Below are positions 14,663 through 24,644 of a DNA stretch of 64,000 nucleotides, piece after piece (position 1 is the stretch's first letter; every line of letters starts with the position of its first letter). Position numbers and translations under genes: made by a program. The DNA comes from Novosphingobium sp. (lineage in GTDB: Bacteria > Pseudomonadota > Alphaproteobacteria > Sphingomonadales > Sphingomonadaceae): NCBI GenBank assembly GCA_016719755.1, contig JADJYM010000015.1, positions 496,001 to 560,000 on the forward strand, read 5' to 3'. The notes beneath the pieces are model-generated. The model saw nothing but the letters and a program-made list of their open reading frames with translations. It searched no databases and had not been told where the DNA came from.

Positions 14663-14752
14663 GGACAGGTGGCCGAGTGGTTTAAGGCAGCGGTCTTGAA
14701 AACCGCCGTGGGTGCAAGCTCACCGTGGGTTCGAATCCCACCCTGTCCGCCA
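14663..14752 (+). tRNA. tRNA-Ser(UGA)
   Basis: A complete 90-base serine tRNA: acceptor GGACAGG pairs with CCTGTCC, D-arm GCCGAGTGGTTTAAGGC, anticodon stem GCGGT/ACCGC with loop CTTGAAA (anticodon TGA), a long class II variable arm (GTGGGTGCAAGCTCACC region), T-arm GTGGGTTCGAATCCCAC, discriminator G and encoded CCA at 14750-14752. Confidence 0.97.
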
Positions 14753-14789: not shown

Positions 14790-15842
14790 TCAGAACCAGC
14801 GCTTGCGGAACCACAGGGCCAGGTTCACCAGCGCGATCAGCACCGGCACTTCCACCAGCGGGCCGATGACAGCGGCGAATGCCACGGGCGATGCCAGCCC
14901 GAAGGCGGCGATGGCGACGGCGATGGCCAGTTCGAAATTGTTCGATGCCGCCGTGAAGGACAGCGCGGCCGTGCGCGGATAGTCAGCGCCGATAGCCCGA
15001 CCTGACACGAAAGCCAGCACGAACATCACAACGAAGAAGATCCCCAGCGGCACGGCAATGCGCAGCGCATCCATTGGCAGAGCGAGGATTTCCTCACCCT
15101 TGAGGCTGAACATGGCGACGATGGTGAACAGCAGCGCCACCAGAGTGACCGGGCTGATCGCGGGGAGGAATCGGCCTTCGTACCAGTCCGTGCCGCGCGC
15201 CTTGATCAGGGCGCGGCGAACCAGAAAGCCCGCGAGAAACGGAATGCCGAGATAGGTGAGAACCGCCTTTGCGATCGTGGCGAAATCGATCTCCACGATC
15301 TGCGCCTCAAGCCCGAAGACGGGCGGCAGGACGGTCAGGTAGAACCAGGCATAGGGCACGTAGAAGAAGATCTGGAACAGCGAATTGAACGCGACGAGGC
15401 CCGTCACATACTCCGCGCTTCCCCCGGCCAGCTGGTTCCAGACCAGCACCATGGCAATGCAGGGGGCGATTCCGATCAGGATCAGGCCGGTCATGTATTC
15501 CGGCTTGTCCGGCAGCAGCAGGGCGCCAAGCGCGAACATGAAGGCCGGGGCAACGATCCAGCACAGCACGAATGACAGGGCCAGGATCCTGCCGTTGCGG
15601 AACACCTGGCCCAGTTCCTCATAGCGAACCTTGGCCAGCGGCGGGAACATCATCAGGATCAGTCCGATGGCAATCGGAATGCTGGTCGAACCCACCGACA
15701 TCGCGCCAAGCGCGTGCGGCACGCCCGGCGCCAGCGAGCCCAGCGCGATTCCGGTCGCCATCGCCACGAAGATCCAGACCGTGAGATAGCGGTCGAGGAA
15801 TGACAGCCTGCTTTTCGGCGCGTCCATTGCATCCCTTGCCAT
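14790..15842 (-). CDS. acr3: Acr3-type arsenite efflux transporter
   Basis: A 350-residue, ten-helix inner-membrane permease that exports As(III). The ATG at 15842 follows the arsC stop with a one-base overlap and gives [20 protein letters not shown], typical of Acr3. The family motif with the essential cysteine, [20 protein letters not shown], is present, as is the C-terminal [18 protein letters not shown]. Last gene of the arsR-arsI-arsC-acr3 operon; it ends just after tRNA-Ser on the other strand. Confidence 0.94.
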
Positions 15843-16348
15843 CAGACTGCTCCTTCCATCTGGCCAATGCGGGCAAGGTGCTCCGCCAATTCGTTGCGGC
15901 CCATCGTTTCGAACGGCAGCGCGAGCAATGCCCGGGCCCGCAGGTCGAGCCACCGCCAGGTCTGTTCGAAAGCGGCGTCCACGGCCGCATCATCGCCCTG
16001 TACGTCTGCCGGATCGGGCAGGCCCCAGTGAGCCTTGAGCGGGGCGCCCATGAAAACCGGGCAGGCTTCCCCCGCGGCATTGCCGCAGACCGTGATGGCA
16101 AGGTCGATCACAGGTGCGCAAGGCCCCGTGAACTCGTCCCAGCTCTTCGAACGGAACGCGGCTGTGTCGATGCCCTTGCGGGCCAGCAGACGCAGCGCTC
16201 CGGGGTGCGGCACGCCCTTCGGCCTGCTTCCGGCGCTGTGGGCGATGATCCGCCCCCTGCCCAACTGCGCCAGAATCGCCTCACCCAGGATCGAGCGGGC
16301 GGAATTGCCGGTGCACAGCACCAGCACGCTGAACGGTCGGTCGGTCAT
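15842..16348 (-). CDS. arsC: Arsenate reductase ArsC, LMW-PTPase type
   Basis: Reduces arsenate to arsenite. The 168-residue protein has the phosphatase-like P-loop [10 protein letters not shown] (CX5R). Two further cysteines in [14 protein letters not shown] fit the three-cysteine relay of the thioredoxin-coupled class (S. aureus pI258 type), and a DP motif follows in GLPDPADV. It lies between arsI (9-base gap) and acr3 (one-base overlap), so arsenite is produced and exported by adjacent genes. Confidence 0.92.
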
Positions 16349-16357
16349 GACTTGCCT

Positions 16358-16840
16358 TCAACAGCAGGTGGAGGAGGAGGTTCTGGTCGGAGCCGTCACG
16401 GAAGGCGCGCAGCAGGCATTCGCGGCAGCGTTATCCGAAGCCAAACCGGCAAAATCCGGGCTTTCGCCATAGACGGTGCTGTCGCCCATGGTCAGGAAGG
16501 CTTCCCAGACGACACCATCGGGATCGCCGATCCAGCTCTTTTCCGACTTCGCATAGCAGCAGGTTGTCGCGCCTTCTTCCATCACCGGACCGTTGGCCGC
16601 TTTCAGGCGCCCATAGACCTCGGCCAGCTCTGCCTCATCCTCGACCTGAAGGCCAAGATGCTCGACACCCTTGGCAGCGCCGCACTTTTGCGAAATCGCG
16701 AAGTTGATGCGCGGATCGTCCAGCATCCATTTGGCATAGTCGGACTTCGTCACTGACGGCTCCGCGCCGAACAGGCTGGAATAGAAGGCGATCGAGGCAT
16801 CGAGGTCGGCAACCCCGACATGGACATGGAAACGCTTCAT
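16358..16840 (-). CDS. arsI: ArsI/CadI-type glyoxalase-fold dioxygenase (C-As lyase)
   Basis: A 160-residue vicinal-oxygen-chelate protein. ArsI is a Fe(II) dioxygenase that cleaves methyl- or aryl-arsenic(III) bonds, releasing As(III). The expected ligands are visible: His5, His61 and Glu113 for iron, and the vicinal pair Cys94-Cys95 (GATTCCYAKSEKSW) for the organoarsenical. The start at 16840 (MKRFHVHVGV) overlaps arsR by 4 bases. The tail is unusual, with extra cysteine pairs NACCAP and a terminal STCC, which may bind arsenic or metal. CadI-like proteins share the fold, so the substrate is inferred from residues and operon. Confidence 0.88.
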   Translation of the reverse strand: MKRFHVHVGVADLDASIAFYSSLFGAEPSVTKSDYAKWMLDDPRINFAISQKCGAAKGVEHLGLQVEDEAELAEVYGRLKAANGPVMEEGATTCCYAKSEKSWIGDPDGVVWEAFLTMGDSTVYGESPDFAGLASDNAAANACCAPSVTAPTRTSSSTCC

Positions 16841-17181
16841 GCGACGTCCCTTTCTTCGCAGGTTTGAGGGGGGCAGGCGGCAGCCGGTGAGCAGGACACT
16901 CCGCCGCAGCAATTTTCGGTCAGATAGCCCATCAGGCCGTTCATCGCGCCGAAGTTTGCCGAATAGATGATCGAGCGGCTCTGGCGGCGCTGGATGACCA
17001 GCCCGGCCTTGGCGAGCTGCGCAAGGTGGAAGCTCATCGAGGACGGCGCGACGCCAATTGCCTCGGCTATCAGGCCTGCGGGCATTCCGTCCGGTCCGGC
17101 CTGCACGAGCAGGCGAAAAACCGCGAGGCGGTGTTCCTGCGCCAGCGCGCCCAGCGCCTTGATGACTGCCTCTGGCTCCAT
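16837..17181 (-). CDS. arsR: ArsR family arsenic-responsive repressor
   Basis: A 114-residue winged-helix repressor of the ars operon. I choose the ATG at 17181 (MEPEAVIKALG) because GGAG lies 6 bases upstream; an upstream ATG at 17202 would sit inside the operator dyad. The DNA-recognition helix is in VAPSSMSFHLAQLAKAGLV. The inducer site is a C-terminal cluster, Cys91-Cys92-x4-Cys97 plus Cys103 and Cys108, like the C-terminal site of Acidithiobacillus ArsR rather than the ELCVCDL type. First gene of the operon; divergent from the KAS III gene. Confidence 0.9.
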   Translation of the reverse strand: MEPEAVIKALGALAQEHRLAVFRLLVQAGPDGMPAGLIAEAIGVAPSSMSFHLAQLAKAGLVIQRRQSRSIIYSANFGAMNGLMGYLTENCCGGVSCSPAAACPPQTCEERDVA

Positions 17182-17196
17182 GCCGAACTCCATAAA

Positions 17197-17239
17197 TTCC
17201 ATGATTCTTGAAATATGGAAATTATGGCCGGTTTGTCAA
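17197..17239 (-). promoter_or_regulatory. ars operon promoter and ArsR operator dyad
   Basis: On the minus strand, TTGACA (17239-17234) is followed after 17 bases by ATATTT (17216-17211), a plausible sigma-70 promoter. Overlapping the -10 and the transcription start is a dyad TTCCAT (17197-17202) / ATGGAA (17215-17220), with an inner TTC-TT-GAA also symmetric around 17208.5. Placement over the -10 fits repression by ArsR. Functional assignment is inferred. Confidence 0.65.
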
Positions 17240-17291: not shown

Positions 17292-18290
17292 ATGGCGGGA
17301 CAGGACTTCAGATTCGGAATAGCGAGCAGCGCCAGCTATTTGCCGCGCCGTGCGGTCACTGCGGATGAGCTGGCCGCGCTTTGCAGCATTCCGGCGGACC
17401 TCGTTGCCGCGCGCTATGGCGTGCGCCGCCGCCACTACGCCGCCCCGGACGAAACGAGTTCGGCGATGGCCGCGTGGGCGGCCGGGCAGGCGCTGGCCGA
17501 GGCCGGTTGGGAGCCCGCTTCGCTCGATGTGATCGTGGGTGCCTGCGGCGTGATGGAGCAGCCTATCCCCGGTACGGCGGTGCTGGTCCAGCGGCGGCTC
17601 GGGCTGGGCAGTTCGGGCATTCCCGCATACGACATCAACGCCACCTGTCTCTCGTTCCTGATGGCGCTGGACCGCGTGCTGGCGGGCTTTGCCCTGGGCG
17701 AATGGCGCCGTGCGCTGATCTTCTCCGCCGACATCGCCAGTGCGGCGCTGGACTATTCCGACCCGGAAGCCTCGCTGCTGTTCGGCGACGGGGCGGCAGC
17801 CGTGCTGCTGGAGGCTGACGGCCCGCATTGCCGCCTGTCCCATCGCTTCCGCACGTATGGTGAAGCCGCCGAGGCCTGCCGGCTGGAGGCGGGAGGCACC
17901 CGGCTGCGGCCCCGTGACGATCTGGAGGACTTCCTTGCCCGGTCGCGCTTCCGGATGAACGGGCGCGCTGTGTTCAGCGCCACGGCCCGGCAGTTTCCCG
18001 GCTTCCTGGAGGAAGTGCTGGGCGCCGCCGGGGTCGCACCTGATGGGATCGACCTGATCGTGCCGCATCAGGCCAGCGCTCCCGCGCTCGAACACCTCAA
18101 GCGCTCGCTACCCGGTGGCCATGCGCGCTGCGTCGATTGCTTCGCCGATGTCGGCAACCTGATCGCCACGTCCCTGCCCTACGCGCTGCATCTTGCGCGC
18201 GGCGAGGGGCGGTTGACGCCCGGTTCAACCGTGCTGCTGATCGGCAGTTCGGCGGGGGTTTCGCTTGGCGGCGCGGTGCTGCGGCTGTGA
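17292..18290 (+). CDS. Beta-ketoacyl synthase III (FabH-like), head of a biosynthetic cluster
   Basis: A 332-residue thiolase-fold enzyme with the full KAS III triad: Cys119 in INATCLSFL, His259 in PHQAS and Asn289 in DVGNLIATS. FabH-like enzymes condense an acyl-CoA starter with malonyl-ACP or another acyl donor, or transfer acyl groups. It is much more divergent than a housekeeping FabH and lacks fatty-acid synthesis neighbours, so a dedicated role in the following cluster is inferred. Its stop overlaps the GTG start of the reductase. The closest known analogies are OleA-like or alkylresorcinol starter enzymes; the substrate cannot be read from the sequence. Confidence 0.85.
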   Translation: MAGQDFRFGIASSASYLPRRAVTADELAALCSIPADLVAARYGVRRRHYAAPDETSSAMAAWAAGQALAEAGWEPASLDVIVGACGVMEQPIPGTAVLVQRRLGLGSSGIPAYDINATCLSFLMALDRVLAGFALGEWRRALIFSADIASAALDYSDPEASLLFGDGAAAVLLEADGPHCRLSHRFRTYGEAAEACRLEAGGTRLRPRDDLEDFLARSRFRMNGRAVFSATARQFPGFLEEVLGAAGVAPDGIDLIVPHQASAPALEHLKRSLPGGHARCVDCFADVGNLIATSLPYALHLARGEGRLTPGSTVLLIGSSAGVSLGGAVLRL

Positions 18291-19273
18291 ACAGGCGGAC
18301 CCTCGTCACCGGAGCGACCGGGGGTCTTGGGCGGGTGCTCGTGGCCCAGTTGCTGGCCGATGGCCGCGAAGTGCTGGCGCTGGGGCGCAATGTGGCGGTC
18401 GGCGCGGAGCTGGAGGCACAGGGGGCCCGGTTCGTGGCGACCGACCTGTGCGATCCGGCCTGTCGCCTGCCGCTGGATGGCGTGGGCACGATCTTTCATC
18501 TTGCCGCCCTGTCGGCGCCGTGGGGGCCTGAAGCAGCGTTCCATGCGGCAAACGTCACGGCGACGGAACGCCTGCTTGCCGACGCCCGCGCTGCGGGCGC
18601 CGCCCGCTTCATCCACGTTTCCACGCCGTCGATCTATGCGCGCCCGCGCGACCAGATCGGCCTGACCGAGGCTTCGCCGCTGCCGCCGCGCCTTGCCACC
18701 GCCTATGCCCGCACCAAGCTGGAGGGAGAGCAGGCGGTCCTTGCCGCGCATGGCGCCGCGCTGCACACCGTCGCGCTGCGGCCCCGCGCGATCATTGCCC
18801 CGCACGACACGGCCCTGCTGCCGCGCCTGCTGCGCGCGGCGGAGAAGGGCGCGATGCCGCTGCCCCGCAGCGGACGCGCGCTGGTCGAGCCAACCGATGC
18901 CCGCGACGTGGTTGCCGCCATGCTGGCGGCGGAAGCGCGCAGCGATGAGGCCGGAGGAAAGGCCTTCAACGTATCGGGGGGCATTCCGATCAGCCTGCGC
19001 CAACTGGTCAGCCACGTTTTCTCGCGGCTGGGCAAGCCGGTCCGGCTGGTGCCGGTGCCTGCCCGGTTCGTACTGGCCGCAGGGGCGCTGGCCGAAGCGC
19101 TGGCGCGGCGCGAGCCCGCCATTACCCGCCATGCCGCCCTGACCCTGGGCTGGTCGCAGACCTTCGATCTTGCCGCTGCAAGGCAGACGCTCGGCTGGGG
19201 ACCGCGTCACCACCCCCTTGCCGCGATCGACTGGGCGCTGGATGAGCGGCAGCGGGAGCAGAGCCATGCGTGA
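18287..19273 (+). CDS. NAD(P)-dependent epimerase/reductase (3beta-HSD/OleD-like extended SDR)
   Basis: A 328-residue extended short-chain dehydrogenase. The GTG start at 18287 overlaps the KAS III stop (GTGA) and places the dinucleotide-binding loop TGATGGLG at residues 8-15. The catalytic pair is Tyr140-x3-Lys144 (YARTK), with serines in HVSTPSIY just before. The C-terminal half (NVSGGIPISLRQL, RFVLAAGALAEALAR) matches the 3beta-hydroxysteroid dehydrogenase/OleD style. Together with the KAS III a beta-keto to beta-hydroxy reduction is a reasonable inference. It overlaps the next gene by 8 bases. Confidence 0.85.
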   Translation: MNRRTLVTGATGGLGRVLVAQLLADGREVLALGRNVAVGAELEAQGARFVATDLCDPACRLPLDGVGTIFHLAALSAPWGPEAAFHAANVTATERLLADARAAGAARFIHVSTPSIYARPRDQIGLTEASPLPPRLATAYARTKLEGEQAVLAAHGAALHTVALRPRAIIAPHDTALLPRLLRAAEKGAMPLPRSGRALVEPTDARDVVAAMLAAEARSDEAGGKAFNVSGGIPISLRQLVSHVFSRLGKPVRLVPVPARFVLAAGALAEALARREPAITRHAALTLGWSQTFDLAAARQTLGWGPRHHPLAAIDWALDERQREQSHA

Positions 19274-20105
19274 ACTCGCCTCGATCCCGCTGCTCACCGG
19301 GCACTGCCGCCATCCCGAGATGATGACCCTGCGCGGCGGGAGCCTGCTGCCGCGCAGCTATCCGGCGGTGGCCATGCTGCTGATCCACCCGCTCGAAGGG
19401 GCGATCCTGTTCGATACCGGCTATGATCCGGCGTTCCTGGCCGCGACCGAGCCGTTTCCGGAGCGGTTCTACCGCTGGGTCACCCCGGTCACGCTTGATC
19501 CGCAGCGGTCGGCCGCCGCGCAGTGCGCCGCGCTGGGCTATCCGCCGCAAGAGGTTCGCCACCTTGTCCTGTCGCACTTTCACGCCGACCATATCGCCGG
19601 AACCCACGCCTTTCCCAATGCCCGGATCCACTGCGCGCGGGCCGGACTGGACGAGGCGCACAAGGGCGGGCGGATCGCCGCAACCCGCCGGGGGGTGTTG
19701 CGCGCCCTGATCCCGCCCGATTTTACCGCGCGGGCCAGTTTCTTCGAGGATCGCCCCTCCTTCCCGCTGCCTTCGGCCTGCGCACCGTTTGATCGCGGGG
19801 CGGACCTGCTTGGCGATGGTTCGCTGCTGGCGGTGGAGCTTCCCGGGCATTGCCCCGGCCACTGGGGACTGGTGCTCAACGATGCGCGCTGGGGGCTGCA
19901 CTTCCTGGTCGCGGACGCCGCCTGGTCGCTTGACGCCATCCGCCGCGATGTTCCGCCCCCGGCGCTGACCTCGGGTCTGCTTGGCAACACCGGGCGCACG
20001 CGCGAGACGCTGCACCGGTTGCACCAGCTCCACCGCCGCAACCCGGACCTGCGGCTGACCCCGTGCCATTGCAGCGAGCGCGCGGCGGAGATTGCGGGGC
20101 CATGA
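19266..20105 (+). CDS. MBL-fold hydrolase, quorum-quenching-lactonase-like
   Basis: A 279-residue metallo-beta-lactamase-fold enzyme with the di-zinc motif HFHADH (His104, His106, Asp108, His109), His195/His199 in PGHCPGHWG, Asp217 and His268. Size and motif layout resemble N-acyl homoserine lactonases and related esterases. In the cluster it could hydrolyse or close a lactone, or release a thioester product; no substrate evidence exists. The ATG at 19266 overlaps the reductase end by 8 bases, and its stop overlaps the ATP-grasp start (ATGA). Confidence 0.85.
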   Translation: MRELASIPLLTGHCRHPEMMTLRGGSLLPRSYPAVAMLLIHPLEGAILFDTGYDPAFLAATEPFPERFYRWVTPVTLDPQRSAAAQCAALGYPPQEVRHLVLSHFHADHIAGTHAFPNARIHCARAGLDEAHKGGRIAATRRGVLRALIPPDFTARASFFEDRPSFPLPSACAPFDRGADLLGDGSLLAVELPGHCPGHWGLVLNDARWGLHFLVADAAWSLDAIRRDVPPPALTSGLLGNTGRTRETLHRLHQLHRRNPDLRLTPCHCSERAAEIAGP

Positions 20106-21253
20106 GCCGCTGGATCGTAACCGGCGCGCGCGCACCGGTTGCCCTCGATCTGGCGCGCGCCTTGCGCACGGCGGGGCACGAGGTTCATCTGGCCGACAGC
20201 GTCACCCCGTTCGCCGCGCGCGGGCTGCGACCGCGTCTGCCAATCCACCGCCTGCCACCCCCGCGCCAGGACTTTGCCGGGTTTCGGACAGGCATGCTGA
20301 CCCTGCTCGACCGGGTTGAAGATGCCATGGTGGTGCCAACCTGCGAGGAGGTGTTCTGGCTGGCCGAAGCGGCGCACCGCGACGGCTGGAGCGCGCGGTT
20401 GCTTGCTCCGCCCCTCGCCCTCCTTCGCCAGCTTCACTCCAAGGCCGATTTCGCCGGATTGGCGGGATCGCTCGGGCTGGACGCACCTGAAACCCATGTG
20501 CTGGACGCGCCATTCGCGGCGGAAGACCTGCCCTTCGCGCCGCAGGAACTGGTCCTGAAGCCCGAATTCTCGCGCTTTGCGAGTTCCACGCTGATCGCGC
20601 CGGGCGCGCGCCAGATCGCCGCCGTCCGCCCCGCTCCCGGGCGCTGCTGGGTGGCGCAGCGCCGGATCATCGGTGAGGAGGTCTGTTCGTGGGCCTTTGC
20701 GGTGGATGGGCGGATCACCGCCTTTGCCGCCTATCGCCCGCGCTGGCGGCAGGGCCGGGCCGCCGCATTCCAGATGGAGGCGGTGGCCCTGCCCGCCGTG
20801 CGCGAAGTGAGCGAGCGGATCACCGGCGCCACCGGCCTGACCGGCCATCTCTCGCTCGATACCATTGTCGATGCCGCAGGCCGGGTGTGGCCGATCGAAT
20901 GCAACCCCCGCGCGGTCAGCGGCCTGCATCTGTTCGATGCCGCGCCGGGCCTGGCCGGAGCGCTTAGCGCAGCTTCGGCCCTGCCCGAACCACCTGCCGG
21001 AACCCTGCGCCACCTTGCCCCGGCGATGGCCCTGCTTGGCCTGCCGTCCGCGCTGCTGTCCGGCCGAACTGGCGCCCTGTTGCGCGATTGGCGCGCGGGC
21101 GGGGACGCCATCGATCGCGAGCGAGGCGGCCTCGTCACGCTTGGTTGCCTGCTCGACGCCGCGCGCTTTGCCGCGATGGCGATCCGCTCCAGGCAATCTC
21201 CGGCAAGCCAGACCACCGCCGATATCGAGTGGGACGGGAAGCCGATGCCATGA
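20102..21253 (+). CDS. ATP-grasp ligase (carbamoyl-phosphate-synthase-like)
   Basis: A 383-residue ATP-grasp protein. Motifs: KADFAGLAGSLGLDAPET (residues about 114-131), the ATP-contacting ELVLKPEFSRFASSTLI (Lys153), GEEVCSWAFAVDGR near 191, and the metal-binding PIECNPRAVSGLHLF (Glu266, Asn268). Such enzymes activate a carboxylate as acyl-phosphate and join it to an amine, thiol or hydroxyl. The N-terminal part (SRWIVTGARAPVALDLARAL) resembles the Rossmann-like pre-ATP-grasp domain. Start and stop both overlap neighbours by 4 bases (ATGA). Confidence 0.86.
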   Translation: MSRWIVTGARAPVALDLARALRTAGHEVHLADSVTPFAARGLRPRLPIHRLPPPRQDFAGFRTGMLTLLDRVEDAMVVPTCEEVFWLAEAAHRDGWSARLLAPPLALLRQLHSKADFAGLAGSLGLDAPETHVLDAPFAAEDLPFAPQELVLKPEFSRFASSTLIAPGARQIAAVRPAPGRCWVAQRRIIGEEVCSWAFAVDGRITAFAAYRPRWRQGRAAAFQMEAVALPAVREVSERITGATGLTGHLSLDTIVDAAGRVWPIECNPRAVSGLHLFDAAPGLAGALSAASALPEPPAGTLRHLAPAMALLGLPSALLSGRTGALLRDWRAGGDAIDRERGGLVTLGCLLDAARFAAMAIRSRQSPASQTTADIEWDGKPMP

Positions 21254-22374
21254 CGGTGCAACTGCTGACCGATCCGGCACAGATGCGCGCCCTCGGCTCG
21301 CTTCCCGCAACCTTCGCCGCAAGCCTGGCGGAGCAGGGCACGCCGCAGTTCATTGCGAATGCGTCGTCTGCCATGCTGCTGGCCCGGGTGAACGGGCACG
21401 ATCTGCCGCTCACTGTCGACGATGGCGGACATGGCCGCAGCTATGTCGCCAGTCCGCACAGTGCCTATGTCGATTATGCCCGGCGCGAGATGGATCTGGT
21501 GGGGCTGCGTCATGGTCGCCGCGCGGTCGGCGCGGTGCTGGGGCTGACCGACCGGTTGCTGCGCGCGGCGCGGATCAACCGGGCGGTTCATGTCGACAAC
21601 TGGCTGCTTTCCACCAACCTTCACGGCGACTGGCAGGGCGAAGGCCTGCCTCAACTCCGCGCCGCGCTGTGCGAGCGCTATCCCGATCATTTCCTGATCC
21701 TGCGAACGCTGGACGCATGGTCCTGCCCCCGCCTGCTGGATGCCGTGCGGCGCGATGGCTGGATCATGGCTCCCGCCCGGCAGATCTGGGTGACCGACGA
21801 CCTGTCGCGCGACTGGCTGCCGCGCAAGGACCGCCTCAACGACCGGCGCATCCTGCGCCGCAGCGGCCTGACCATCGAGGAGCCGGAGCAGCTTTCCAGC
21901 GCCGATTGCGAACGGATCGCCCACCTCTACGCACTGCTTTATCTTGACAAGTATTCGCCGCTCAATCCCGCGTTTACCCCGGCGTTCATCGCCCTGCTGG
22001 ACCGCACTGGCCTGACCCGCTTTCGCCTCGCCCGGCGCGATGACGGAACGATCATGGCGGTGGCCGGGATGATCGCGCGCGGAGGCCATGCCACCTGTCC
22101 GGTCGTCGGCTACGATACCGCCCGCCCGCAGCACGAAGGGTTGTACCGGATCGCCTGCTACCTTGCGAGCGAGTGGACGCTGGAGCGCGGCCTCTCGCTC
22201 CACGGTTCGGCAGGAGCGGCGCAGTTCAAGCGGGCCAGAGGGGCGCGGGGGGAAATCGAATACATGGCGATCCATGCCCGCCACCTGTCCGCGCCGCGCC
22301 GCGCGGCCGCGCGCCTGCTGGCCGGCGTGCTGCAAGCAGCGGTCGTGCCGATGATGCGGAGGCAGGGATGGTGA
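21250..22374 (+). CDS. FemAB/GNAT-like acyltransferase
   Basis: A 374-residue protein whose C-terminal half (from about residue 240) reads as a GNAT/FemAB-type acyltransferase: FRLARRDDGTIMAVAGMIA, then GLYRIACYLASEWTLERG and LHGSAGAAQFKRARGARG, the pattern of BioF2/FemAB-like proteins that transfer acyl or aminoacyl groups. The N-terminal half also looks like a degenerate acyltransferase lobe. Within the cluster it could N-acylate an amine made or joined by the ATP-grasp ligase. It overlaps the ATP-grasp gene by 4 and the Rieske gene by 7 bases. Domain assignment is fair; reaction unknown. Confidence 0.75.
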   Translation: MTVQLLTDPAQMRALGSLPATFAASLAEQGTPQFIANASSAMLLARVNGHDLPLTVDDGGHGRSYVASPHSAYVDYARREMDLVGLRHGRRAVGAVLGLTDRLLRAARINRAVHVDNWLLSTNLHGDWQGEGLPQLRAALCERYPDHFLILRTLDAWSCPRLLDAVRRDGWIMAPARQIWVTDDLSRDWLPRKDRLNDRRILRRSGLTIEEPEQLSSADCERIAHLYALLYLDKYSPLNPAFTPAFIALLDRTGLTRFRLARRDDGTIMAVAGMIARGGHATCPVVGYDTARPQHEGLYRIACYLASEWTLERGLSLHGSAGAAQFKRARGARGEIEYMAIHARHLSAPRRAAARLLAGVLQAAVVPMMRRQGW

Positions 22375-23363
22375 GCGACTGGCCCCGGGCAATCGCGCAA
22401 GGCTGGCACCCGGTGGCCTATCGCCCCGAAGTCCGCGCCCGCCCCTTGCCGATCCAGCTGCTGGGCGAGAACCTGGTGGCCTTTCGCGATGCGGATGGCG
22501 GCATCGCGGTCTTGCAGGACCGCTGCCCTCATCGCGGAGTCCCGCTGTCGCAAGGACGCTTGCGGGACGGAACGCTGGTCTGCCCCTACCACGGCTGGCG
22601 CTTTGCCGGGGATGGGCGGCTGGTGGAGGTTCCGGGCGCGCGCACCTGCCCTCCGGTCAAGGCCCGGGCACTGCCGGTGCGCGAGGATGCGGGTCTGGTC
22701 TGGACCTGTCTTGCTGCCGATCCGCCGCCCTTCCCCGATCTCCCGCCTGTGATGAGCGACCCGGCGCTTGACCGCTTCTGGTGGCCGCTCGCGCCTTCGC
22801 GGGCCGGGCTGCTCGATGCGCTGGAAAACCATCTCGATCCGGCCCACCCGCATTTCGTCCACCCCTGGCTGGTCCGCCCGCCAACGGCGCGTCGGACCAC
22901 CCGGGTGGAAGTCCGCTCCGGCCCGTGGGGGGCGGAAGCACGCTATATCGAGCAGCGGGCCAACCGCGCGCTGCTGTCTGCCGTCATGGAGGGGGAGCGC
23001 AAGGCCGGGATCGGGCGGCTCTGGCCGCCCACTTGCGGCGAAGTGCGGCTGGAGAACGCGCGCGGCGCCATGCTTTCGATCGCGGTGGTGTTTTCACCGC
23101 TGGATCACGACCTGACCCGACCCTATGCCCATTTCGCCAGCACCCGCGGCCTGTTGCCCGCGTGGTTCAAGCGCGCGGCACTCAAGCTGTTCCACTTGCC
23201 GGTCCTGGCGCAGGACCGCCGGATGCTGGGCTGGCAGGCTGATGCACGCGGCCCCGGCGGTTTTGCGTTCGGTCCGCTGGATGTCCTGGCCCGCTCGATC
23301 CTGCGCCACGCCCACGGCGAACCTTCGCCGGAGGAAGAAGCGAGCTTCGAGCTCGACCTCTGA
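22368..23363 (+). CDS. Rieske non-heme iron oxygenase (aromatic-ring-hydroxylating type alpha subunit)
   Basis: A 331-residue oxygenase of the single-component-like Rieske family. The 2Fe-2S site is Cys53-x-His55 and Cys72-x2-His75 (CPHRG ... CPYHGW), and the mononuclear iron site is ENHLDPAHPHFVH. Such enzymes hydroxylate, demethylate or desaturate substrates using electrons from a separate ferredoxin/reductase, none of which is in this cluster. Length is close to the vanillate-demethylase/cholesterol-7-desaturase group. It starts inside the end of the acyltransferase gene and ends 6 bases from the convergent adenylating enzyme. Confidence 0.9.
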   Translation: MVSDWPRAIAQGWHPVAYRPEVRARPLPIQLLGENLVAFRDADGGIAVLQDRCPHRGVPLSQGRLRDGTLVCPYHGWRFAGDGRLVEVPGARTCPPVKARALPVREDAGLVWTCLAADPPPFPDLPPVMSDPALDRFWWPLAPSRAGLLDALENHLDPAHPHFVHPWLVRPPTARRTTRVEVRSGPWGAEARYIEQRANRALLSAVMEGERKAGIGRLWPPTCGEVRLENARGAMLSIAVVFSPLDHDLTRPYAHFASTRGLLPAWFKRAALKLFHLPVLAQDRRMLGWQADARGPGGFAFGPLDVLARSILRHAHGEPSPEEEASFELDL

Positions 23364-23369
23364 GGCCGG

Positions 23370-24644
23370 TCAGCCAGCCCTGAACTGGCGCATGACCCGC
23401 CGCAGCTTGCGATCGAACGGCACGGTGATCCCGCGCCTGACAATTACCTCCGGCACCAGTCCCATGGCGCCCAGCCGTGCCGCCAACGCCGCGCGGACTT
23501 TCGCCGCGACCGTCTCTGAAACGCCAGCATCAAGGTGGACGGTCAGCTCTGCCGGCGCGGTCTGCACCACCCGGTAATCGTCGATGGACGGATCGGCATC
23601 GATGATCGCGTTGCGCACCACGTCGGGGGTGACGGTGCGGATTTCGCCGGATGGAGCCGCGATCAACAACAAGTCATCGGCCCGGCCCGCGATACGCAGC
23701 ACCGGCTGATAGATCGAACCGCAGGCGCAGGGTTCGTCCGAAAGCTCGATCAGATCGTTCATGCGATAACGGATCATGGCCTGGGCGCGGCGGGTGAAAT
23801 CGGTCACCGCCGGCTCTGCCAGGCCCTGCCAGGTCGGGTCTTGCCGCCATTCGAAGTGGACCACGTCCTCGGCCAGATGCAGCGTCCCATGCGCGCAGCC
23901 CACCCCGAACAGCCCCTCGGTCGCCATGTAGATCTCGCGCACCCGAACGCCGGTGGCCTGCTCGATCACGGCGCGGTCCAGCGGATCGAGCACTTCGGCG
24001 CCGCTGAATATCCGCCGTGCCGTCAACTGCCCGCGTTCCGCGAGCAGCCGCAGGACCTTGGGCGGGGCGACAATCGTGTCCGGGGTGAACTGCACCAGCC
24101 TGTCCGCCCAGGCATCCACCCCTTGGGCAAGGTCGAAGAAGGCCAGCGAGGTCCGGCTACCGCTCGTCGCGCTGCGATAAAGGTCGGACAGCCCCGGCAG
24201 GGCCAGCGCCACCCGGTGCCGTCGCCACAGCGCGTCCGGCAAGGCCTTGGCCAGCAGGGTGCCAAGCCAGACAAACCGCTCCGCGTCGGTGATGACATAA
24301 TAGCCGCGATTACCGCTGGTGCCGGTGCTTTGCCCCACCACCGCCTCGCCGATGCGTTCGCGCCCTTCTGACAAGACTTCACGAACTGCATCAGTATCGA
24401 TTCCAAAGCGATTGAAATTCTGAAAGTTTCCAACAAGAATCGTTTTGTCGATCACGGGCAATGCCGCAAGGTCTTGGTGGGCGAAGGCGCGATAATACGG
24501 GAAATGGGTGGCGGCGTAATCCACCAGCCGTCGCACCTGCCGGTCCTGATACCGCACCAGCCGCTCACGGCTCGACAGGTGCCGGGCACGCAGGCGGGCC
24601 CGGGTATAGGCGGCAAGCACCAGCAGCATTGCGCGAGCGTCCAT
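23370..24644 (-). CDS. CoF/F390-synthetase-like adenylating enzyme
   Basis: About 424 residues of the phenylacetate-CoA ligase/coenzyme F390 synthetase-related superfamily. The nucleotide loop GQSTGTSGNRGYYV is clear, with YMATEGLFG and the C-terminal hinge RIAGRADDLLLI. These proteins activate a carboxylate as acyl-AMP. Start choice: GGAAGG lies 6 bases before the ATG at 24644; an ATG at 24650 and a TTG at 24674 are alternatives. It converges with the Rieske gene (6-base gap), so it is not in the same transcript but probably belongs to the same pathway. Confidence 0.8.
   Translation of the reverse strand: MDARAMLLVLAAYTRARLRARHLSSRERLVRYQDRQVRRLVDYAATHFPYYRAFAHQDLAALPVIDKTILVGNFQNFNRFGIDTDAVREVLSEGRERIGEAVVGQSTGTSGNRGYYVITDAERFVWLGTLLAKALPDALWRRHRVALALPGLSDLYRSATSGSRTSLAFFDLAQGVDAWADRLVQFTPDTIVAPPKVLRLLAERGQLTARRIFSGAEVLDPLDRAVIEQATGVRVREIYMATEGLFGVGCAHGTLHLAEDVVHFEWRQDPTWQGLAEPAVTDFTRRAQAMIRYRMNDLIELSDEPCACGSIYQPVLRIAGRADDLLLIAAPSGEIRTVTPDVVRNAIIDADPSIDDYRVVQTAPAELTVHLDAGVSETVAAKVRAALAARLGAMGLVPEVIVRRGITVPFDRKLRRVMRQFRAG

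Follow-up and report, generated by a model that had tools for sequence, protein, structure and literature searches.

A conserved four-gene core with exchangeable partner genes in a Novosphingobium cluster that may build a lipid-type product

What do seven tightly packed genes of familiar enzyme families make together? The question is raised by a cluster at positions 17292-24644 of a 64,000-nucleotide stretch of a Novosphingobium sp. genome (contig JADJYM010000015.1, positions 496,001 to 560,000; hereafter the window, whose numbering is used throughout). Six genes lie on the forward strand: a KAS III-type ketosynthase of the CorB/MxnB-like group (g1, 17292..18290), an extended short-chain dehydrogenase/reductase (SDR) of the Epimerase/3Beta_HSD type with a YxxxK motif and a GTG start (g2, 18287..19273), a metallo-beta-lactamase (MBL)-fold hydrolase with an HxHxDH motif like that of acyl-homoserine lactone (AHL) lactonases (g3, 19266..20105), a PRK06849-like ATP-grasp ligase (g4, 20102..21253), a double-GNAT FemAB-type transferase (g5, 21250..22374) and a Rieske non-heme iron oxygenase with two candidate starts (g6, 22368 or 22371..23363). 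Their successive overlaps are 4, 8, 4, 4 and 4 bases, the last being 7 if the ATG at 22368 starts g6. An F390 synthetase-related adenylate-forming enzyme (TIGR02304; g7, 23370..24644) is encoded on the reverse strand, convergent with g6, and the two 3' ends lie 6 bases apart. A sequence-only reading had described this layout, with overlaps of 4-8 bases and a convergent g7 6 bases away; its coordinates were confirmed, and all the motifs that it named were found (C119/H259/N289, YARTK, HFHADH, PIECNPR, CPHRG/CPYHGW and STGTSG). It was also right that the unit in the window includes no carrier, regulator or exporter gene; relatives often have a TetR-type gene nearby (17 loci, belonging to the window type and to the sulfotransferase type described below).

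The genes occur together in other genomes far beyond chance. A scan of a genome collection with the g4 alignment gave 473 relatives, and the 80 best loci went into the analysis; this set was chosen by g4 and is thus no independent count, and its numbers hold within the fetched stretches, many contigs ending before 10 kb. All seven genes were present at 47 of the 80 loci. Only g5 was missing at 15, both g5 and g6 at 5, only g6 at 1 and only g7 at 3; the other 9 were partial, several of them on short contigs. We also searched 398 Pseudomonadota genomes, including the window's own, in which strong matches (above 250 bits for g4, 200 for g7 and 190 for g3, thresholds set after the score gap was visible) were found for g4 in 8 genomes, g7 in 10 and g3 in 11, with g5 in 4. 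Weaker matches were left uncounted (g4 in 72 and g7 in 87 genomes at E<=0.001, g3 in 27 at E<=1e-20). The g3 and g7 genes were found together in 10 genomes, g3 alone in 1 and g7 alone in none (p 4.5e-19), and by coordinates g3 lay within 5 kb of the strong g7 match in 10/10. Similarly, g4 and g7 were together in 6 genomes, g4 alone in 2 and g7 alone in 4 (p 1.1e-9). A strong g4 match had none of the other six genes within the surrounding 18-19 kb in G070 and G345, and g5 was solitary in G407. Within the window's genus, one of 36 other genomes (G008) has a TIGR02304 match, under the cut-off; g4 is strong in that genome and weak (1.8e-32) in G020. From this rarity in its own genus and the linkage across genomes, we conclude that this is an accessory cluster whose genes travel together. 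The order of the genes varies among lineages. The pairwise distances of all 21 gene pairs are correlated (r 0.53-0.86; 0/200 permutations as high), as measured with 16-35 loci per pair, out of 35 loci whose g1 differs by over 30%, and with species relatedness uncontrolled. The earlier proposal of a single biosynthetic unit is thus borne out by the 47 complete loci and the linkage of g3 to g7, and the idea that the genes seldom co-occur elsewhere is refuted.

Individual loci show further features. Sphingomonas sp. 1F27F7B (L019, 4747 and 6039) has, next to a full cluster, an additional g7 and an additional, weaker Rieske-like match. In Paraburkholderia sp. PREW-6R (L010 11255-12152) a Rieske-like match falls in two pieces where no gene is listed, and in an Acetobacteraceae metagenome-assembled genome (MAG) a CRISPR-like repeat array, seen as a repeated peptide, lies near the cluster (L026 16933-20074).

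The unit that is conserved is smaller than the cluster itself. At the 98 loci with g1, g2 and g3 were each present in all 98 and g7 in 92; g7 had no match in the L049 genome and only marginal ones (<=22 bits) in the L056 and L064 genomes. Four genomes of one family have a strong g7 and no g4 match, with the locus order g1-g2-g3-g7. The conserved core is therefore the KAS III enzyme, the reductase, the MBL hydrolase and the F390-like ligase, and the ATP-grasp, GNAT and Rieske genes (g4-g6) form an exchangeable set. The compact seven-gene set described from the sequence is a real unit, but one built on a conserved core of four. A minimal unit of seven genes is ruled out, as the quartet without g4-g6 stands at 10 of 111 loci, a set assembled in different ways, with two of the ten being from E. 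coli.

The partners of this core differ between lineages; neighbour families were assigned by visual inspection of crude gene calls (at least 70 amino acids), so that small carrier genes may be missed. In E. coli Nissle 1917 the order is narI, g1, g2, g3, g7, PAP2, a sterol-desaturase/fatty-acid hydroxylase, an acyl-CoA desaturase and tRNA-Tyr. Among complete E. coli genomes, 671 of 5,426, Nissle 1917 included, carry at least 80% of this 6.9-kb block, in a collection that we infer leans to clinical lineages; identity is 95% or more in 670 of the 672 records that matched. PAP2, hydroxylase and desaturase genes likewise accompany the core in three of the four genomes noted above for a strong g7 and no g4 match (L146, L147 and L148, but not L149) and in Burkholderia (L159). 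A sulfotransferase and a TetR gene partner the core on Paracoccus and Ketogulonicigenium plasmids (L160, L161, L172); genes for a nonribosomal peptide synthetase (NRPS), a phosphopantetheine-binding protein and an AMP-binding protein are also nearby in L160, and the annotated stretch of Paracoccus TOH shows TetR and g1 only. On a Rhizobium plasmid (L163) the core stands with DUF3419 and a g5 homologue in place of g4. The DUF3419 family includes the betaine-lipid enzyme BtaA. GT21 and a small unknown protein partner the core in Fusobacterium and also in G214, where g7 is absent, the two proteins being 34% and 23% identical between these loci. On Pseudomonas plasmid L174 the quartet stands alone amid hypothetical genes. 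Conversely, g4 and g5 are found together on a Deinococcus plasmid with no core genes around them, and are paired without the core nearby in two Armatimonadota MAGs, where TIGR02304 is on another contig. Judged by family, the partners of the core elsewhere appear to serve mostly lipid or headgroup chemistry. The TetR proteins are only 24-30% identical between locus types, and their proximity is for that reason weak evidence of common regulation.

Some of these replicons and neighbourhoods carry other arrangements. Three very large Pseudomonas plasmids (0.9-1.0 Mb) have genes of the core: in L164 they are dispersed between hypothetical genes, in L174 they form the quartet, and L013 carries g7 and g4 with a KAS III homologue ~18 kb from them on the same plasmid. 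In Novosphingobium (L008 1368-4846, L067 2366-5845) a transporter-like and an AMP-binding gene lie between TetR and g1; they were named by eye, are fused in L067 as called, and their neighbour family touches 5 loci.

What could the individual proteins do? The Pfam and NCBIfam matches bear out the family names given in the sequence-only reading. Pfam cut-offs were passed by g1 (ACP_syn_III), g2 (Epimerase/3Beta_HSD), g3 (Lactamase_B) and g6 (Rieske), none of g1-g6 passed a curated NCBIfam cut-off, and conservation of residues was assessed on 67-98 aligned relatives per family. The catalytic triad of g1 (C119, H259, N289) is invariant in 98/98 relatives. Its best NCBIfam match is the generic KAS III family PRK07204, under its cut-off; profile scores, and a tree without OleA, PqsD, DarB and PpyS that has a 100% split from five FabH-type sequences, sort it with CorB/MxnB and not with FabH. 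We therefore regard g1 as a CorB/MxnB-type ketosynthase, with a predicted chain-joining activity. CorB and MxnB, of corallopyronin and myxopyronin synthesis, are its nearest solved relatives and have the same Cys/His/Asn triad. Ile92 of g1, before a conserved Pro, is at the position of the OleA/PpyS base Glu and is I or L in 98/98 relatives; CorB/MxnB have a hydrophobic V94 where OleA and PpyS have Glu, according to an excerpt of PMC4578411. A plain OleA analogue is disfavoured for g1, as this Glu is missing.

The nearest NCBIfam model to g2 is OleD, at 172 bits against an equivalog cut-off of 580, and g3 scores 68.6 bits with the AHL lactonase AttM equivalog, whose cut-off is 390. The metal ligands of g3 (H104, H106, D108, H109, H195, D217) are kept in 98/98 relatives, and the enzyme may act as a thioesterase or a lactonase. 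E266-R270 of g4 is conserved in 96/96 relatives. The predicted structure of g4 has an ATP-grasp fold whose nearest neighbours, L-amino acid ligase, PylC, GAR synthetase and PurK, take in both amine ligases and carboxylating enzymes; g4 may be a carboxylate-amine ligase, with an amine as the candidate acceptor. Acetyltransf_6 is the Pfam match of g5, at 21.7 bits just below the cut-off of 22, and was seen by Pfam in 25 of 53 family members; neither FemAB nor LPG_synthase came up among them. Its model (pLDDT 96.5) has a double-GNAT fold by Foldseek and VIA-align, nearest Sbb17/Sba18, FemX and MprF, in lists where a family's absence does not exclude it. AHL synthases also have a GNAT-like fold. 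In its modelled fold g5 thus resembles aminoacyl-tRNA-dependent transferases and perhaps uses aminoacyl-tRNA; lipids are aminoacylated by MprF, but identity of g5 to MprF, FemX and Sbb17 is 10-19% and it has no membrane flippase part. In g6, C52, H54, C71, H74, H159, H164 and D282 are conserved in 78/78 relatives. A Pfam search gave no match for g7, which is a member of TIGR02304 by the curated cut-off (297 vs 252 bits), a family whose NCBIfam name gives no function; as a control, 6 of 14 genomes matched TIGR02304 at E<=0.001 and one exceeded the cut-off. K413 of g7 is conserved in 88/88 relatives. The near-invariance of these motif residues among relatives indicates that the catalytic motifs of the cluster are under constraint.

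The reading that we favour, tentatively and with slightly less than even confidence, is that the cluster encodes a lipid-type pathway in which four core genes are conserved and the tailoring genes can be exchanged. Its product would probably be a lipid-type amphiphile with exchangeable heads, aminoacyl in the window type. In this scheme g1 would join a pair of acyl or beta-ketoacyl thioesters from the host, the OleD-like reductase g2 would convert a keto group to a hydroxyl, g3 would free a carboxylic acid, as a thioesterase or lactonase, and g7 would adenylate the freed acid in readiness for coupling. In the window type, the g4 ligase and the g5 transferase, perhaps aminoacyl-tRNA-dependent, would give the amphiphile an amino-acid-type head, and the Rieske enzyme g6 would oxidise the product. 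The gene unit, its conservation and co-inheritance, the conserved catalytic residues, the folds predicted for g4 and g5 and the swapping of partners were established above; every substrate, the order of the steps and the lipid nature of the product are what we infer. The pairing of g4 and g5 without the core in Deinococcus and Armatimonadota, and DUF3419 with g5 in Rhizobium, fit a division into core and head. It is conceivable, though doubtful, that the quartet marks out a bacterial lipid class not described before, in which a two-chain scaffold, joined by a C-C bond in a mycolate-like logic, has its headgroup swapped between lineages; just as doubtfully, and together with it, the headgroups could be aminoacyl (window), sulfate, DUF3419-derived, glycosyl or PAP2-processed. 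The quartet is found in many Proteobacteria, some Bacilli, Fusobacterium and ~12% of complete E. coli genomes, a biased sample.

Among the alternatives, a diffusible small molecule or signal (a pyrone, lactone or N-acyl compound) survives best. Here a CorB-type head-to-head condensation would be followed by lactonisation, g3 would be a lactonase, and g4 and g5 would decorate the product. Excerpts of PMC4578411 and PMC4901931 give alpha-pyrones as products of the ketosynthases closest to g1 with solved structures, and photopyrones act as signals in the former. The likeness of g3 to AHL lactonases points the same way, as do an HlyD-type gene (L015) and the Novosphingobium transporter-like gene near some clusters. 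Against this stand the partners PAP2, fatty-acid hydroxylase, desaturase, GT21 and DUF3419, the near-constant presence of the adenylating g7 with g2 and g3 beside g1, and the 45 neighbour families, among which no receptor or many-lineage exporter was recognised by eye from the crude calls. A pyrone- or lactone-type small molecule keeps some modest probability, since pyrones are the products of the nearest solved ketosynthases. The N-acylated or lactone signal proposed earlier is accordingly a possible but less favoured reading, as most of the partners belong to lipid or headgroup chemistry by family and the nearest folds of g5 are aminoacyl transferases.

Less likely still is the catabolism or modification of an exogenous hydrophobic acid or sterol-like compound by a SdmA/SdmB-like Rieske and SDR pair, the CoA-ligase-like g7 and the hydrolase. 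Rieske, SDR, MBL and PaaK-like enzymes are frequent in catabolism, and g2 and g6 match SdmB (69 bits) and SdmA (63 bits) weakly, far under the cut-offs. However, the core holds a ketosynthase with an intact triad at 98/98 loci, ATP-grasp ligases and FemX/MprF-like folds typically belong to biosynthetic pathways, and the core without a Rieske gene exists, as the ten quartet-alone loci demonstrate.

The lipid-type pathway that we favour has parts in common with several known systems. CorB and MxnB act on carrier-bound chains of type I polyketide synthases (PKS), whereas the window unit has no PKS or carrier gene and, unlike them, adds a reductase, a hydrolase and a ligase beside the ketosynthase. 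As in OleABCD, a ketosynthase, an OleD-like SDR and an adenylating enzyme are clustered together; however, g1 lacks the OleA Glu, g7 is of the PaaK/F390 type and not OleC, and there is no OleB in the cluster. An epimerase-type SDR, an acyl-activating enzyme and N-acyltransferase logic recall ceramide synthesis in Caulobacter, as outlined in an excerpt of PMC9386255, and two core variants have a GT21-type partner, but the window unit has no dedicated acyl carrier protein and its C-C bond would come from a KAS III enzyme. No serine palmitoyltransferase match was found among the seven products with Pfam and NCBIfam, the rest of the genome not being searched.

The PubMed Central (PMC) full-text literature, a search that left out subscription papers and preprints, holds no description of the cluster and no function for TIGR02304, in line with the earlier remark that no pathway could be named; nor did it yield a description of the E. 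coli locus under the search words that we guessed. An F390 synthetase occurs in a ladderane-type cluster with a different gene set in passages of PMC2649909, and the gene is named in lists only in those of PMC5467263 and PMC9823363. The parts belong to known families, and the combination and its design of a core plus an exchangeable head appear undescribed. The pathway is widespread and conserved, and the E. coli core, including that of Nissle 1917, makes it a direct target that could bring to light either a new class of lipids or a new metabolite. Solving it would assign a role to the orphan family TIGR02304 and to those CorB-like ketosynthases that stand apart from polyketide assembly lines.

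Divergent from g1 lies an ars operon (14790..17202, reverse strand) encoding ArsR, an ArsI/CadI-like glyoxalase with vicinal cysteines, ArsC and ACR3, the names ACR3 and ArsI/CadI-like being assigned partly by eye. An arsenic-linked pathway is very improbable: the cluster diverges from arsR across an 89-base gap and an ArsR-family gene (no match to the window ArsR at E 1e-5) precedes g1 in Paraburkholderia L010, but the only promoter-like site in the gap faces arsR, other relatives have TetR near g1, and, of the 80 related loci, only the two from Mesorhizobium amorphae numbered L069 and L094 have window-like ars genes, ~8 kb off. A general arsenic link is rejected on this count, made within the fetched stretches. 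The operon is probably a chance neighbour outside the pathway, and the cluster may or may not have co-opted its promoter region. The start of arsR is covered by an imperfect inverted repeat of 18 nt (17190..17227), perhaps an ArsR operator. The G+C content is 69.6% in the cluster, 66.5% in the whole window and 63.7% in the ars operon. A tRNA-Ser (tga) gene lies upstream of the ars operon at window positions 14663-14752.

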